Assembly (NCBI GenBank): GCA_001871015.1
Contig: MNUO01000054.1
Location: 1-19,467, forward strand
Direction: 5' to 3'
DNA from: Candidatus Desantisbacteria bacterium CG1_02_38_46
GTDB taxonomy: Bacteria > Desantisbacteria > UBA1551 > UBA1559
DNA length: 19,467 nucleotides
Part shown: positions 3,230 to 12,204 of the stretch, one piece after another
How positions within the stretch are numbered: the stretch's first letter is position 1
Layout: each line of letters begins with the position of its first letter
Notes under the pieces: generated by a model
What the model saw: the letters and a program-made list of their open reading frames with translations, nothing else
Told to the model about the DNA's origin: nothing
The model's database searches: none
Made by a program: the position numbers and the translations under genes

Positions 3230-3600
3230 CTGCTTGACTTTTTGGCGTTATTGACCACAAGGCAGGGAAGTGCGGGACATACATCAGACTTGCCAGGGCT
3301 TTGTAATGTTTGCCTGCCGAAAGTAGCCGAGTAGGTGCTCTGGAGCAGCACTCTGCCGAAATTAGGCCCTCTGGAAGGGGAAGTGGAAGTGAGAGGAGCG
3401 AGATGAAAGGCAATCATTAAGCGGACTGACCTGAAAGGGCAGGCACAACGGTTTTGAGCGGAATGTTGAGCGAAGCGAAATCCCGCACCCGAAGGGTCGG
3501 GAAGGCTTGGAGCGAAAATCGGTTGTGAGCGTAAAACCTTGCAAGTCGTAGAGTGGGCTCAAGGGGCGAGTGGGGTAGGCGGGGTTAAGTATCTATATAT
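3230..3600. other. G-rich intergenic region with hairpins, no credible gene
   Basis: About 370 bp between the pilin promoter and the ATPase promoter. The plus strand is purine/G-rich with scattered GAGCG and GAGCGAAGCGAAA words. It can form a hairpin at 3335-3351 (GTGCT / AGCAC) and one around ACCC-GAA-GGGT near 3490. The open frames on the minus strand here have biased, low-complexity composition (many S, P, F, L), no ribosome binding site and no family I recognise. I read it as accumulated intergenic repeat DNA, possibly with a noncoding RNA. I do not recognise tmRNA, RNase P, SRP or 6S RNA in it. A lone TTGACT at 3234 lacks a -10 box and may be the relic of a divergent promoter. Confidence 0.5.
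3335..3351. repeat. Hairpin in an intergenic repeat, related to that at 9064-9092
   Basis: GTGCT-CTGGAGC-AGCAC forms a perfect 5-bp stem. The surrounding words (AGTAGG just before, ACTCTGCCGAAATT just after) resemble those around the hairpins at 9059-9100 (AGTAGG..CTCTGG and ACTCTGCGATTT). This suggests two diverged copies of one dispersed element. Confidence 0.4.
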
Positions 3601-3625: not shown

Positions 3626-3654
3626 TTGACTTTATAAAGATAATGTGGTATTGT
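3626..3654 (+). promoter_or_regulatory. Promoter of the first DUF4143 ATPase gene
   Basis: TTGACT at 3626-3631 and TATTGT at 3649-3654 are 17 bp apart. The left arm of the inverted repeat starts at the last base of the -10 box, so the transcript would begin inside the palindrome. Confidence 0.6.
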
Positions 3655-3691
3655 TTAGGATACCACTTTTAGGCAAAAGTGGTATCCTAAA
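3654..3691. promoter_or_regulatory. Perfect 17-bp inverted repeat between promoter and ribosome binding site
   Basis: TTTAGGATACCACTTTT (3654-3670), loop AGGC, then AAAAGTGGTATCCTAAA (3675-3691): 17 of 17 pairs. The last bases of the right arm belong to the Shine-Dalgarno AAAGGAG (3689-3695). A further GTGGTAT at 3645-3651 could pair with the left arm instead. It could be an operator for a dimeric repressor, a 5' mRNA hairpin controlling translation, or a mobile-element end; sequence alone does not decide. Confidence 0.8.
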
Positions 3692-3701
3692 GGAGTGTGT
3701 C

Positions 3702-5021
3702 ATGGATAAAGAAACAGTGAAGCAGATTATCCGGGAAAACCAGGAATTTCCATTACCGCCGTTGGTAGAGAGGGATGTAGAAATACCTCTGGACTCGTCA
3801 AAAATCATTACTTTGAGCGGTCCCAGGCGCAGTGGGAAAACTTTCCTTTTATATTCCTTTATGAAGAAGATAGTGCAGGCAAAAATTAATCCTGAGAAAA
3901 TGTTTTATATAAGTTTTGATGACCCCCGCCTTTTGCCGTGCACGGCGTCTGACCTGCAGACTATATCTGAGTGTTACTTTGAGTTGTACCCGCACCTGTA
4001 CGGAAAGATGAATTACGCATTTCTTGATGAAATCCAGAATGTGAAGGACTGGGAACTCGGAATCAGGAGAATATACGATACCGGGAATTTCCGCCTATTC
4101 CTTACAGGTTCTTCTTCGAAATTCTTAAGTAAGGAAATCGCCACAAACCTGCGGGGGCGTGCGTTGAATTTCGAGATTCTGCCGTTCTCTTTTAAGGAAT
4201 TCATAAGAGCTAAGGGCATTGACGCTTCCGTAGACAAGAATCTGGTTTACTCCTCAAAAAGGTTCGGCGTGAAAAAAATGCTCGCAGAATATTTTGAAAC
4301 CGGGTCATTCCCTGAGGTTGCTCTTGAAAAGAGCGAGAACCTGAAAGTCCGCATTCTTAAAGAATACCTGAACACTATGTTTTTCCGGGACATGATAGAG
4401 AGGTACAGAATCAGGAACGAGGCTGTTATAAGGGAATTGATAAAGTATTTTTCTACCAACGTGGGTAATGTTTTCTCCCAAAACAATATATGGAAATGGC
4501 TCAAGCAGACCCACCCCCTTACAAAAAAGACGCTGATACATTACAGTGCCTACCTGGAAGACATCGGACTTTTTTTCTTCCTGAGGAGATTCTCCTTTTC
4601 CGTGAAAGAACAGCTGCAGACGAAGCGCAAAGTCTATATTGTGGATAACGGTTTGAGAAGCGCCTTCGGGTTCAGGTTCAGCGAGGACAGGGGGAGAATC
4701 CTTGAAAATACGGTTTTCCTGGAATTAAAGCAAAGACAAAACCGGAATCCTTTCTCTGAAATATTCTATTATCAGGACCATGAAAAAAGGGAAGTGGATT
4801 TTGTTATTAAGGAAAGGAATAGGATAAAAAATCTGGTGCAGGTCTATACAAGCCTCCAAAATTTTGAGACGAAAAAAAGGGAAGTAAATTCCCTGTTTTC
4901 AGCAGGGAAAAACCTGAAGTGCAGCAATTTAACTGTTATAACTTTTGAGGAAGAAGGAGAGGAAAAAATACAGGGCAAAAAAATCATATTTAAGCCGGTC
5001 TGGAAATGGCTTATGGAATAA
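3702..5021 (+). CDS. AAA_14 / DUF4143 ATP-binding protein
   Basis: A 439-residue ATPase. Walker A is GPRRSGKT at 40-47, Walker B is YAFLDEIQ at 105-112, and the sensor-1-like strand LFLTGSSS is at 132-139, followed by LRGRALNFEILPFSFKEF, the hallmark of the AAA_14 family. A C-terminal DUF4143 domain follows (about 230-439), with LVDxGL-like VDNGLRSAF at 315-323 and a PD-(D/E)xK-like core REVDFVIK at 363-370. The matching second half reads LVQVYTS instead of the usual (E/Q)xK, so nuclease activity is doubtful. Function in this family is unknown; many copies occur per genome in candidate phyla. ATG 3702 is chosen over the longer GTG 3645 because AAAGGAG stands 6 bases upstream and the promoter lies at 3626-3654. 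It is a single-gene unit, with a 5' palindrome that may control it. Confidence 0.88.
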   Translation: MDKETVKQIIRENQEFPLPPLVERDVEIPLDSSKIITLSGPRRSGKTFLLYSFMKKIVQAKINPEKMFYISFDDPRLLPCTASDLQTISECYFELYPHLYGKMNYAFLDEIQNVKDWELGIRRIYDTGNFRLFLTGSSSKFLSKEIATNLRGRALNFEILPFSFKEFIRAKGIDASVDKNLVYSSKRFGVKKMLAEYFETGSFPEVALEKSENLKVRILKEYLNTMFFRDMIERYRIRNEAVIRELIKYFSTNVGNVFSQNNIWKWLKQTHPLTKKTLIHYSAYLEDIGLFFFLRRFSFSVKEQLQTKRKVYIVDNGLRSAFGFRFSEDRGRILENTVFLELKQRQNRNPFSEIFYYQDHEKREVDFVIKERNRIKNLVQVYTSLQNFETKKREVNSLFSAGKNLKCSNLTVITFEEEGEEKIQGKKIIFKPVWKWLME

Positions 5022-9118: not shown

Positions 9119-9147
9119 TTGACAAAACTTAATTTTTTTGATATAAT
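9119..9147 (+). promoter_or_regulatory. Consensus promoter of the second DUF4143 ATPase gene
   Basis: TTGACA (9119-9124), a 17-bp spacer, TATAAT (9142-9147): a perfect sigma70-type match. A second TATAAT at 9175-9180 arises from a 33-bp duplication and has only a weak -35 (TTAAAA at 9152-9157). Confidence 0.75.
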
Positions 9148-9191
9148 TGTATTAAAATAACTTAATTTTTTTGATATAATTGTATAAAAAT
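9126..9191 (+). repeat. 33-bp tandem duplication covering the promoter -10 region
   Basis: Copy 1 is 9126-9158 and copy 2 is 9159-9191. The only difference is T at 9153 versus A at 9186. The unit starts with AACTTAATTTTTTTGATATA. It duplicates the -10 box and spacer but not the -35 box, and places copy 2 directly before the ribosome binding site. Confidence 0.85.
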
Positions 9192-9203: not shown

Positions 9204-10520
9204 ATGTTGCAATTGTCAAGCAATAAGTTATACCCAAGAAAAATAATTGATAAAATAAAGGAGTTTTTGTTTGGTGAAGAGATAATAGTGGTGGTGGGTG
9301 CAAGACAGGTTGGAAAAACTTGCATACTGCAGCTTTTAAAAGAAGAACTCCTTAAGAATGGAATAGAAGAAAAATCCATCTATTATTTTGACCTGGAAGA
9401 CCTTTCTTTGTTGAAGGTTTTAAACGGCGGTGCTAATGAATTTTTGTCTTATCTTTCAAGCATTGGGGTCAATCTTGAAGGAAAAACATTTATTTTTATT
9501 GATGAAATCCAGCATCTGGATAATCCTTCAAATTTTCTAAAAATAATAGGGGACCACCATAAAAATATTAAGTTGATTGTATCCGGTTCCTCAACTTTTG
9601 AGATAAGAAAGAAATTTAAAGATTCCCTTGCCGGTAGAAAAATTTTGTTTGAGGTCTATCCGCTGGATTTTTCTGAATTCCTTCTTTTTAAAGAGAAAAA
9701 AGTTTTTTACAATCTCCTGCTTGAAAATAATCTGTTTAAAATCCGCACTGAAGGGATTGAGCCAGATTTTGAAAAACTAAAGTTTCACGCAGATGATTTT
9801 AAAAGACTTTTTGAGGAATTTACCATATACGGCGGTTATCCACGCACAGTTCTTGAGCCTGGCTACGAAAAAAAGGTCGTATATCTTACGGAAATATATA
9901 ATACTTATGTGAAAAAAGACATAAAGGATTTAATGCGCATTGATAATGTGACTGCGTTCAACAATCTTCTGCAGGTGCTCAGCCTTCAGGTCGGCAATCT
10001 TCTCAATTATAACAGCATAACCGCGGACCTTCAAACCGCAAGGGACACGATAGAAAGGTATGTCTTTGTACTTGAAAATACCTTCATAGCACACTTCGTC
10101 CCGCCATATTTTACAAACAGGCGTAAGGAAATTATAAAAATGCCAAAGATATATTTTTTTGATAACGGATTGCGAAATGTGGCGACAAAAAATTTCGAGG
10201 CGCCGGAGACGCGGGTTGATGCCGGAGCGCTGGTTGAAAACTATGTTTTTACCCAGCTAATCAAGAATTTAAAAACGCTTGAGGAATTGCGTTTCTGGCG
10301 CACACTATCCAAAAACGAGATAGATTTTATAATTATGGGACAAAATCCTGTTCCTGTGGAAATAAAATACAGGCCGTTTAAATCCCCTGCTCTACCGAAA
10401 GGCATAAGATATTTTCTTAAGAAATACCCTGTCCAGCAGGCATTTGTTCTCACAAAAGATTTTTTTGCAAGGGTAGAAGAAGGTAAAACCCGTATATATT
10501 TTCTACCTGTGTGGATGTAA
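9204..10520 (+). CDS. AAA_14 / DUF4143 ATP-binding protein (second copy)
   Basis: A 438-residue ATPase of the same family as the gene at 3702 but only distantly related in sequence. Walker A is GARQVGKT (32-39), Walker B is FIFIDEIQ (96-103) and the sensor strand is KLIVSGSS (123-130), followed by LAGRKILFEVYPLDFSEF. The DUF4143 domain has YFFDNGLRN (317-325) and a complete PD-(D/E)xK-like core: NEIDFII (371-377) and VEIK (385-388). Unlike the first copy, all acidic and lysine residues of this nuclease-like motif are kept. ATG 9204 with GAGG five to eight bases upstream is chosen over the in-frame TTG 9180, which lies in the -10 box. It is a single-gene unit with its own promoter. The cellular role is unknown; toxin/antitoxin-like or transposon-associated roles have been guessed for the family. 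Confidence 0.88.
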   Translation: MLQLSSNKLYPRKIIDKIKEFLFGEEIIVVVGARQVGKTCILQLLKEELLKNGIEEKSIYYFDLEDLSLLKVLNGGANEFLSYLSSIGVNLEGKTFIFIDEIQHLDNPSNFLKIIGDHHKNIKLIVSGSSTFEIRKKFKDSLAGRKILFEVYPLDFSEFLLFKEKKVFYNLLLENNLFKIRTEGIEPDFEKLKFHADDFKRLFEEFTIYGGYPRTVLEPGYEKKVVYLTEIYNTYVKKDIKDLMRIDNVTAFNNLLQVLSLQVGNLLNYNSITADLQTARDTIERYVFVLENTFIAHFVPPYFTNRRKEIIKMPKIYFFDNGLRNVATKNFEAPETRVDAGALVENYVFTQLIKNLKTLEELRFWRTLSKNEIDFIIMGQNPVPVEIKYRPFKSPALPKGIRYFLKKYPVQQAFVLTKDFFARVEEGKTRIYFLPVWM

Positions 10521-10591: not shown

Positions 10592-10825
10592 CGGCACGAT
10601 TCATCAAATCCAAACGGTCCCGGTGGTTCAAATACGGGTGATTTTAGACATATGATATATGCCAATGCCGCAGATATTTTTGTTACTGAAGAAAAAAATC
10701 TCAGAAAGAAGTTTTATAGTTATAAAAAAGAGCAAGAGCAAAGCCAAGAACCAATACTGAATTTTAATTCAGGATTAAAAATTTGCAGTTGGATGGATTT
10801 TCAATCCATTTTAGAAAAAATATGA
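10592..10825 (+). pseudogene. C-terminal fragment of a PIN-like domain protein
   Basis: An open frame from 10592 to TGA 10823-10825 that has no start codon before ATG 10652. It contains DFRHMIYANAADIFVTEEKNLRKKFYSY and ends in LKICSWMDFQSILEKI when read in short blocks. The pattern D-x-RH-xx-YA-xx-x-D-x-FVT-E-x-K-x-L matches the last part of PIN-like nucleases, where the aspartate before FVT(x)D/E belongs to the acidic site. The upstream two thirds are absent. The stop overlaps the start of the next gene as ATGA, so translation of this fragment may still feed ribosomes into that gene. The family call is from motif memory and is tentative. Confidence 0.45.
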
Positions 10826-12204
10826 ACAAAAAAGAACTTCAATTAGTTCTGGAAGAGGGCGAAGGTTATAGAATAGAATTCAAAGAATCCCTATCCGATA
10901 TTGAGAGAGAACTTGTTGCTTTTGCCAACTCGTCAGGTGGTAGAATATTTCTTGGGATAACAGACACTAAGGAAATAAAGGGTGCATACATAACAAATAA
11001 ACTTAAATCTCAGATTCAAGACATAGCTAATAATTGCCAGCCCGCTGTTAGAGTTTCCTTTGAAGAATATAAAAATATACTTGTTGTAAATATAAAAGAG
11101 GGAGAAGATAAGCCCTATAAATGCTCTTCCGGATTTTATACAAGAGTTGGCCCAAATTCTCAAAAACTCAGTCGGAACGAGATAATTGAATTCTTCAAAT
11201 CAGAAGGAAAAATCCGATTTGATGAACTTATAAACTTAAAATTTTATTATAATACTCATTTCGACTCACAAAAATTTGGAAGATTTTTAAGGCTTGCTGG
11301 TATTTCAAACATTCTTGATATTCCTGCAACGCTTATCAATCTTGGCGTTGCTGAAAAACAAGAAGGCAAAATTATTTTCAATAATACTGGCATACTTTTC
11401 TTTGCTAAAAATTTGCGTGACATATACTTTCATACAACGGTAACCTGCGCACTATTTAAAGGGAAAGAAAAAGTGGATGTTCTGGACAGAAAAGATTTTA
11501 ACGAGGATATTGTAAGCAATATAGATGACGCCATGAATTTTCTAAAAAAGCACATACCTGTAAGGTATGAAATGACAGGTATGCCCAGAAGAAGAGAGGT
11601 TCCCGAGATACCCTTTGATGCATTACGGGAAGCAATAATAAATGCGGTGGTCCACAGGGATTATTTTGAAAAGGGTGCTAACGTAATGGTAGAAATGTTT
11701 GATGACAGGATAGAAATATCAAATCCAGGTGGACTTGTAAAAGGGTTAAGACCCCAGGATTTCGGCAAAAAAAGTGTGTTAAGAAATCCTAATATTGCAG
11801 ATTTGCTTCACAGAATTGAATACATAGAGAAAATGGGCACAGGCATCAGCAAGATAAGAAATCTTGCTGCTGAGGCAGGGCTGCAACCTCCAAAATTTGA
11901 ATTCGGAACATTCTTCACTGTAACTTTTCTAAGGCCAGGAACAAAAGAAATCTCTGAAGGACTCCCACAGAAAACTACACAGAAAACTACACAGAAAACT
12001 ACACAGAAAACTACACAGAAAACTACACAGAAACTTTTGGAACTCATAAAAGAAAATCCTGCTATTACACAGAAGGAATTGGCAGAAATTATTGGAATAA
12101 GCGAAGATGGGGTGACATATCATATAACTAAATTTAGAAAAGACGGTATCTTAAAAAGAATAGGGCCTGACAAAGGCGGTCACTGGAAAATTCTGAAAAA
12201 ATAA
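10822..12204 (+). CDS. AlbA_2 (Schlafen-like) / RecG-like ATP-binding transcriptional regulator
   Basis: A 460-residue protein. Residues 10-125 form an AlbA_2 (divergent AAA-4, Schlafen-like) domain with FKESLSDIERELVAFANSSGG and RIFLGI. Residues about 265-370 form a GHKL-type ATPase domain (HATPase_c_4) with the N-box ALREAIINAVVHRDY, the G1 box DDRIEISNPGG, and KMGTGI. Residues 383-403 are a repeated TQKT linker, and 404-460 form a winged helix-turn-helix (ITQKELAEIIGISEDGVTYHI). Such proteins are often mis-named RecG helicase; no helicase motif is present. I take ATG 10822 rather than TTG 10783, because it overlaps the upstream stop as ATGA. A role in regulation or defence is inference. 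Confidence 0.83.
   Translation: MNKKELQLVLEEGEGYRIEFKESLSDIERELVAFANSSGGRIFLGITDTKEIKGAYITNKLKSQIQDIANNCQPAVRVSFEEYKNILVVNIKEGEDKPYKCSSGFYTRVGPNSQKLSRNEIIEFFKSEGKIRFDELINLKFYYNTHFDSQKFGRFLRLAGISNILDIPATLINLGVAEKQEGKIIFNNTGILFFAKNLRDIYFHTTVTCALFKGKEKVDVLDRKDFNEDIVSNIDDAMNFLKKHIPVRYEMTGMPRRREVPEIPFDALREAIINAVVHRDYFEKGANVMVEMFDDRIEISNPGGLVKGLRPQDFGKKSVLRNPNIADLLHRIEYIEKMGTGISKIRNLAAEAGLQPPKFEFGTFFTVTFLRPGTKEISEGLPQKTTQKTTQKTTQKTTQKTTQKLLELIKENPAITQKELAEIIGISEDGVTYHITKFRKDGILKRIGPDKGGHWKILKK
11966..12034 (+). repeat. 12-bp coding tandem repeat (5.75 units)
   Basis: CACAGAAAACTA occurs five times without any mismatch (11966-12025), followed by a partial copy CACAGAAAC (12026-12034). Each unit is 12 bp, so copy-number changes add or remove four residues (T-Q-K-T) and keep the frame. 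It lies exactly in the linker between the ATPase domain and the winged helix. Confidence 0.95.

Follow-up and report, generated by a model that had tools for sequence, protein, structure and literature searches.

A three-armed element on the core promoter of an AAA_14/DUF4143 ATPase gene points to gene-private operators with a family-typical spacing

Introduction

What is a long, perfect palindrome doing between the promoter and the Shine-Dalgarno sequence of an ATPase gene? ATPases of the AAA_14/DUF4143 and ATPase_2 families are widespread and often occur in many copies per genome, and almost nothing on either family was found in the open-access literature; searches on COG1672, DUF234, SSO1545 and AAA_14 gave indirect leads only. 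The palindrome discussed here lies in a window (the whole stretch of DNA analysed, 19,467 bp on one contig) of an assembly of 1.73 Mb in 133 contigs, which is 88% complete and has about 18 DUF4143 genes. Two such genes are located in the window:

3702..5021, plus strand: AAA_14/DUF4143 ATPase gene 1 (439 aa, ATG start; Pfam and structure model)
9204..10520, plus strand: second AAA_14/DUF4143 gene, of a different subfamily (ATG at 9204; Pfam)

The product of gene 1 scores 128.7 bits for AAA_14 (cut-off 27) and 79.0 bits for DUF4143 (cut-off 28.1) and so belongs to both, and no orthologue with more than 50% identity to it was found. Elsewhere in the window, an AlbA_2/HATPase_c_4 gene (10783-12204) has a TTQK run (QKTTQKTTQK) between its ATPase-like and winged-helix domains, and the intergenic part at 3316-3509 consists of short multicopy repeats found in at least 12 other places of the genome, in tandem on contig 127.

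The palindrome and its half-sites

The region just upstream of gene 1 contains the following elements:

3626..3654, plus strand: predicted promoter, TTGACT (3626-3631), 17-bp spacer and TATTGT (3649-3654), a consensus match only
3645..3651, plus strand: half-site 1, GTGGTAT (the "third arm"), overlapping the -10 box
3654..3691, no strand: perfect 17-4-17 palindrome, arms 3654-3670 and 3675-3691, loop AGGC
3660..3666, minus strand: half-site 2, ATACCAC, inverted, within the left arm at the predicted transcription start
3679..3685, plus strand: half-site 3, GTGGTAT, within the right arm, 34 bp from half-site 1
3689..3695, plus strand: Shine-Dalgarno sequence AAAGGAG, read from the sequence, sharing 3 nt with the end of the right arm

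The perfect inverted repeat at 3654-3691 given in the preliminary description stands, its two 17-nt arms being 100% complementary, and so does the extra GTGGTAT at 3645-3651, a word that returns at 3679 and, as its complement, at 3660. The right arm enters the Shine-Dalgarno sequence, also as described. The three half-sites together cover the -10 box, the start site and the leader, with the outer copies 34 bp apart. The pattern GTGGTAT-N(6-14)-ATACCAC has a single match in the window and none in 200 shuffled versions, and three arms with the outer ones 32-34 bp apart are likewise seen only once in 19.5 kb. The background of palindromes in the genome was estimated from about 186 kb of its loci, a sample in which many loci surround DUF4143 genes; perfect stems of at least 13 bp (loop 3-8) occur there only before gene 1 and before one paralogue. 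The palindrome and the third arm are confirmed as real, far beyond chance. No exact second copy of the 14-nt arm exists in the 1.73-Mb genome (88% complete), where inexact copies stay at control level; the element is private to gene 1, with no regulon.

The only sigma-70-type promoter match in the searched stretch agrees with the consensus at 9 of 12 positions, and because 0.7 such matches are expected by chance it is weak evidence. The element overlaps the gene's own core promoter as this match predicts it. Transcription predicted from the same match would begin within the left arm, near 3661, leaving the mRNA with only about 10 bp of the stem instead of the whole hairpin.

Paralogues in the same genome

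Is a similar palindrome found before related genes, as the preliminary description proposed to check? Related genes have the placement and the spacing of about 33 bp in common, whereas their arm sequences differ. The paralogue C66 (locus L008) has an unrelated perfect 17-4-17 palindrome, likewise between promoter and Shine-Dalgarno sequence, with half-sites GTGCA, TGCAC and GTGCA, the outer pair of which is 32 bp apart. Further paralogues carry words of their own, such as TTCCAAT, TTCCAAT and ATTGGAA at L012, and the promoter of the second gene in the window is marked by direct copies:

9126-9158 and 9159-9191, plus strand: two tandem 33-bp copies

Such difference of words among paralogues of one genome argues against a single shared host regulator.

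A spacing of 32-34 bp across the family

To what extent is this arrangement a property of the family? Homologues were aligned and 80 loci were fetched from bacterial and archaeal genomes, giving 78 scored genes that were picked by similarity to the window protein. Inverted repeats are enriched at -100..+6 relative to start codons that were assigned mechanically (mean score 8.8 vs 6.5 in 230 neighbouring genes, p 3e-15). Over offsets 8 to 60, the promoters give a single sharp autocorrelation peak, made up of direct repeats at 32, 33 and 34 bp; there is none at 35, and no other offset comes close. With the repeat cut-off fixed at score 8, a direct repeat at 32-34 bp is present in 40/78 homologues vs 5/216 unrelated neighbours (Fisher p 3.6e-22), these being loci that are not independent of each other and are in some cases near-identical (e.g. 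L146, L152 and L179). Other three-offset windows give on average 2.3 genes in this set and 8 at most. The 216 unrelated neighbouring genes rule out generic promoter repetitiveness as the source of the signal.

The same spacing was found in 20 of 54 DUF4143 genes in a second set, from the own genome and others and mostly of other subfamilies (background 1.6), and in a third set collected by Pfam search only (20/77; background 2.0). An unplanned blind confirmation came from the controls: eight of the 13 "control" genes showing the repeat turned out to be DUF4143-like, out of 14 such genes that the controls contained in all. Nine homologues were found on viral contigs, three of which reach the cut-off, two of these being near-identical. 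A detectable 33-bp repeat is absent from half or more of the DUF4143 genes in the sets examined. Gene 1 itself has a direct repeat of just 7 bp at 34 bp, under the cut-off of 8, so it is the palindrome and the three-arm geometry that carry its case. What is conserved is the architecture, that is, placement and a spacing of about 33 bp, and not the arm sequence; the third arm belongs to this architecture rather than being an extra.

The repeated word varies from gene to gene, is often a dyad, and often overlaps -35/-10 or TATA boxes. Four loci (L165, L167, L183 and L207) have TCCTT-N5-AAGGA-type dyads exactly 33 bp apart, and the upstream dyad in L183 and L207 contains the TTGACA -35 box. In the genome of L207 the two dyads of this promoter are the only exact sites, and in those of L183 and L165 no dyad pair at 33 bp exists outside these promoters. 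Another group (L174, L176) uses CTCATTGACAATGAGA, a third (L178, L182, L200) has CCGTG-type dyads around TTGACA, and in the archaeal L133 and L141 a TATA-like box is flanked by AGGGAAA and TTTCCCT. Since members of single operator groups come from unrelated phyla, the operator travels with the gene. On plasmids of Sulfuricurvum kujiense (L404) and Calditerrivibrio nitroreducens (L405) the -35 box lies within a dyad (GTACTTGACAATAAGTAC and CCTTGACAATAAGG, respectively), and as these hosts are cultured, both are good bench material.

The sister family ATPase_2

ATPase_2 genes (PF01637; loci L345-L403) resemble those of AAA_14/DUF4143 in having tandem repeated words, often small dyads, in their own promoters. 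They differ in the period: the spacing of about 33 bp was looked for and is absent, whereas the long form has a period of 15 bp in 23/27 promoters, with more copies at 30 and 45, and the short form one of 19 bp in 9/11, the members counted being mostly from one phylum. The 15-bp period is also present in 8 of 11 ATPase_2 genes from a mixed genome sample. A period set by the protein family together with a word private to the gene is the pattern expected of self-binding by an oligomer.

The winged helix as a candidate reader

Which part of the protein could read such an operator? The predicted structure of the gene 1 product (mean pLDDT 93) appears to have three parts: first the AAA module, then a region resembling a winged helix (residues about 238-300), recognised from the order of helices and strands, and last a C-terminal PD-(D/E)XK-like domain. 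The winged helix lies at:

4413..4601, plus strand: winged-helix region, residues about 238-300, proposed operator reader (model, and tracking of identity with operator)

Among solved folds, SSO1545 and PaBY2304 come nearest, followed by STAND proteins and Orc1/Cdc6, with matches to 2fna (Z 16.3 over 273 residues) and 2qen (Z 16.1 over 272). The model is thus assigned an Archaeal-ATPase/STAND-like fold with AAA module and winged helix as in SSO1545, a fold match being no proof of function. A sequence search for a solved structure of the AAA_14/DUF4143 family gave no convincing match.

With overall identity removed, winged-helix identity correlates with operator similarity among 77 genes (partial r 0.095, permutation p 0.001), the gene pairs not being independent, while in the same genes operator similarity has no correlation with identity of the AAA module (p 0.71) or of the C-terminal domain (p 0.92). 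The sliding windows that track the operator best cover residues 261-285. The effect is small but localised where an operator reader should be.

At residues about 379-382 of the C-terminal nuclease-like domain, the subfamily of gene 1 has QV[CY] where the second gene has EIK, so that the PD-(D/E)XK catalytic lysine may be lost in this subfamily.

What is the element?

Taken together, the element is quite probably a DNA operator on the core promoter, bound most likely by the gene's own ATPase, for autorepression. The operator would consist of copies of a gene-private half-site (GTGGTAT/ATACCAC), with the distance between the outer ones (34 bp) corresponding to the spacing typical of the family (about 33 bp). 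Its reader would be the product of the gene: the winged helix, which follows the AAA module and precedes the PD-(D/E)XK-like domain, would contact each half-site, and an oligomer, possibly controlled by nucleotide such as ATP, would bridge the outer sites. Once bound, the oligomer would cover the -10 box, the start site and the ribosome-binding site, and the gene would be autorepressed; activation in place of repression may also be the outcome. Of the three options in the preliminary description (operator, translational switch, footprint of gene spread), the first is supported, and the covariation of operator and winged helix speaks indirectly for binding by the own product.

Could the element instead work as RNA, with a transcript hairpin of 17 bp by the Shine-Dalgarno sequence controlling translation or mRNA stability and the third arm as an alternative partner? 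RNA from 3651, if made, would fold strongly (-25.1 kcal/mol, z -5.3), and several relatives have hairpins directly before the start codon. In the preliminary description the mRNA begins with the full hairpin, which does not hold if transcription starts near 3661 and cuts the left arm. In the homologues the elements coincide with -35 or TATA boxes and precede the transcribed part, and RNA pairing has no need of the conserved trait, a direct-repeat spacing. The position of these elements and the predicted start disfavour the hairpin reading, and we regard a translational switch as quite unlikely. A reading of the operator by another host regulator instead of the ATPase is also rather unlikely. 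In its favour, operators are mostly read by dedicated regulators, and we infer the binding by the own product. Against it, each paralogue has its own word and the arm of gene 1 is single in the genome, one operator group spans hosts from unrelated phyla, and the operator covaries with the winged helix of its own gene.

The patchy distribution of the family across bacteria and archaea, its presence on 405 plasmids and the nuclease-like domain of the protein might suggest that a mobile element bearing the ATPase gene has its end, its integration site or a nuclease target here. But repeat copies 3' of the gene were found in 0/36 loci tested, which speaks against a transposon end or element boundary with copies at both gene ends and gives no support to the footprint of gene spread proposed earlier, and the copies upstream keep a promoter-typical distance and a fixed spacing; such an origin is very unlikely. 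Least credible of all, to the point of being negligible, is a chance palindrome, a bidirectional terminator or a part of the adjacent upstream multicopy intergenic repeats. A terminator-like match does exist on the minus strand and the upstream region does contain such repeats, but these stop before 3520, the arms are single-copy, and the palindrome and the three-arm geometry are rare. The family-wide 32-34 bp pattern in practice refutes this group of readings.

Relation to known systems

Operators of autorepressors, such as those of toxin-antitoxin antitoxins and phage repressors, are dyads or repeated half-sites on the repressor's own core promoter, private to the gene and moving with it. 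The elements described here are alike in all these respects. They are unlike them in two ways: a solitary gene encodes the presumed reader, an AAA-type ATPase of 440 aa that has a nuclease-like domain, and the protein family sets the spacing but leaves the sequence free. Archaeal Orc1/Cdc6 proteins, of similar fold (2qby), also bind repeated DNA boxes with an AAA+ module and a winged helix; their boxes share a conserved sequence and are found at origins, whereas the DUF4143 elements are gene-private and mark promoters. MalT is a promoter-binding regulator and an ATPase of the same broad fold group. So is IniR, a mycobacterial regulator for whose ATPase domain SSO1545, the fold closest to the present model, served as template, but it binds the promoter of another operon via a C-terminal LuxR-like domain, and no repeat array with family-fixed spacing is reported for it (PMC5760070). 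No prior description of promoter operators like the present ones was found in the open-access literature, which is no proof of novelty. The AAA_14/DUF4143 gene TT_P0211 of Thermus thermophilus is among the genes listed with altered expression in work on Argonaute and plasmid DNA, and gives a clue to the conditions that switch such genes (PMC4406477).

Implications

The family-wide promoter signature suggests a role for the DNA-binding domain of these ATPases, namely binding of the own promoter, and it allows each member's target sequence to be predicted from the 100 bp upstream. The open question of their function becomes testable by a simple binding assay, and a natural specificity code, recognition helix vs half-site, is on offer. 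On balance we lean towards the view that AAA_14/DUF4143 and ATPase_2 may together make up one large and so far unrecognised class of self-addressing ATPases that bind DNA, in which each gene has its own word, the family sets the period (33, 15 or 19 bp) through oligomer geometry, and operator and winged helix change together. If this is true, dozens of paralogues could share a genome, and come through horizontal transfer, free of cross-talk.
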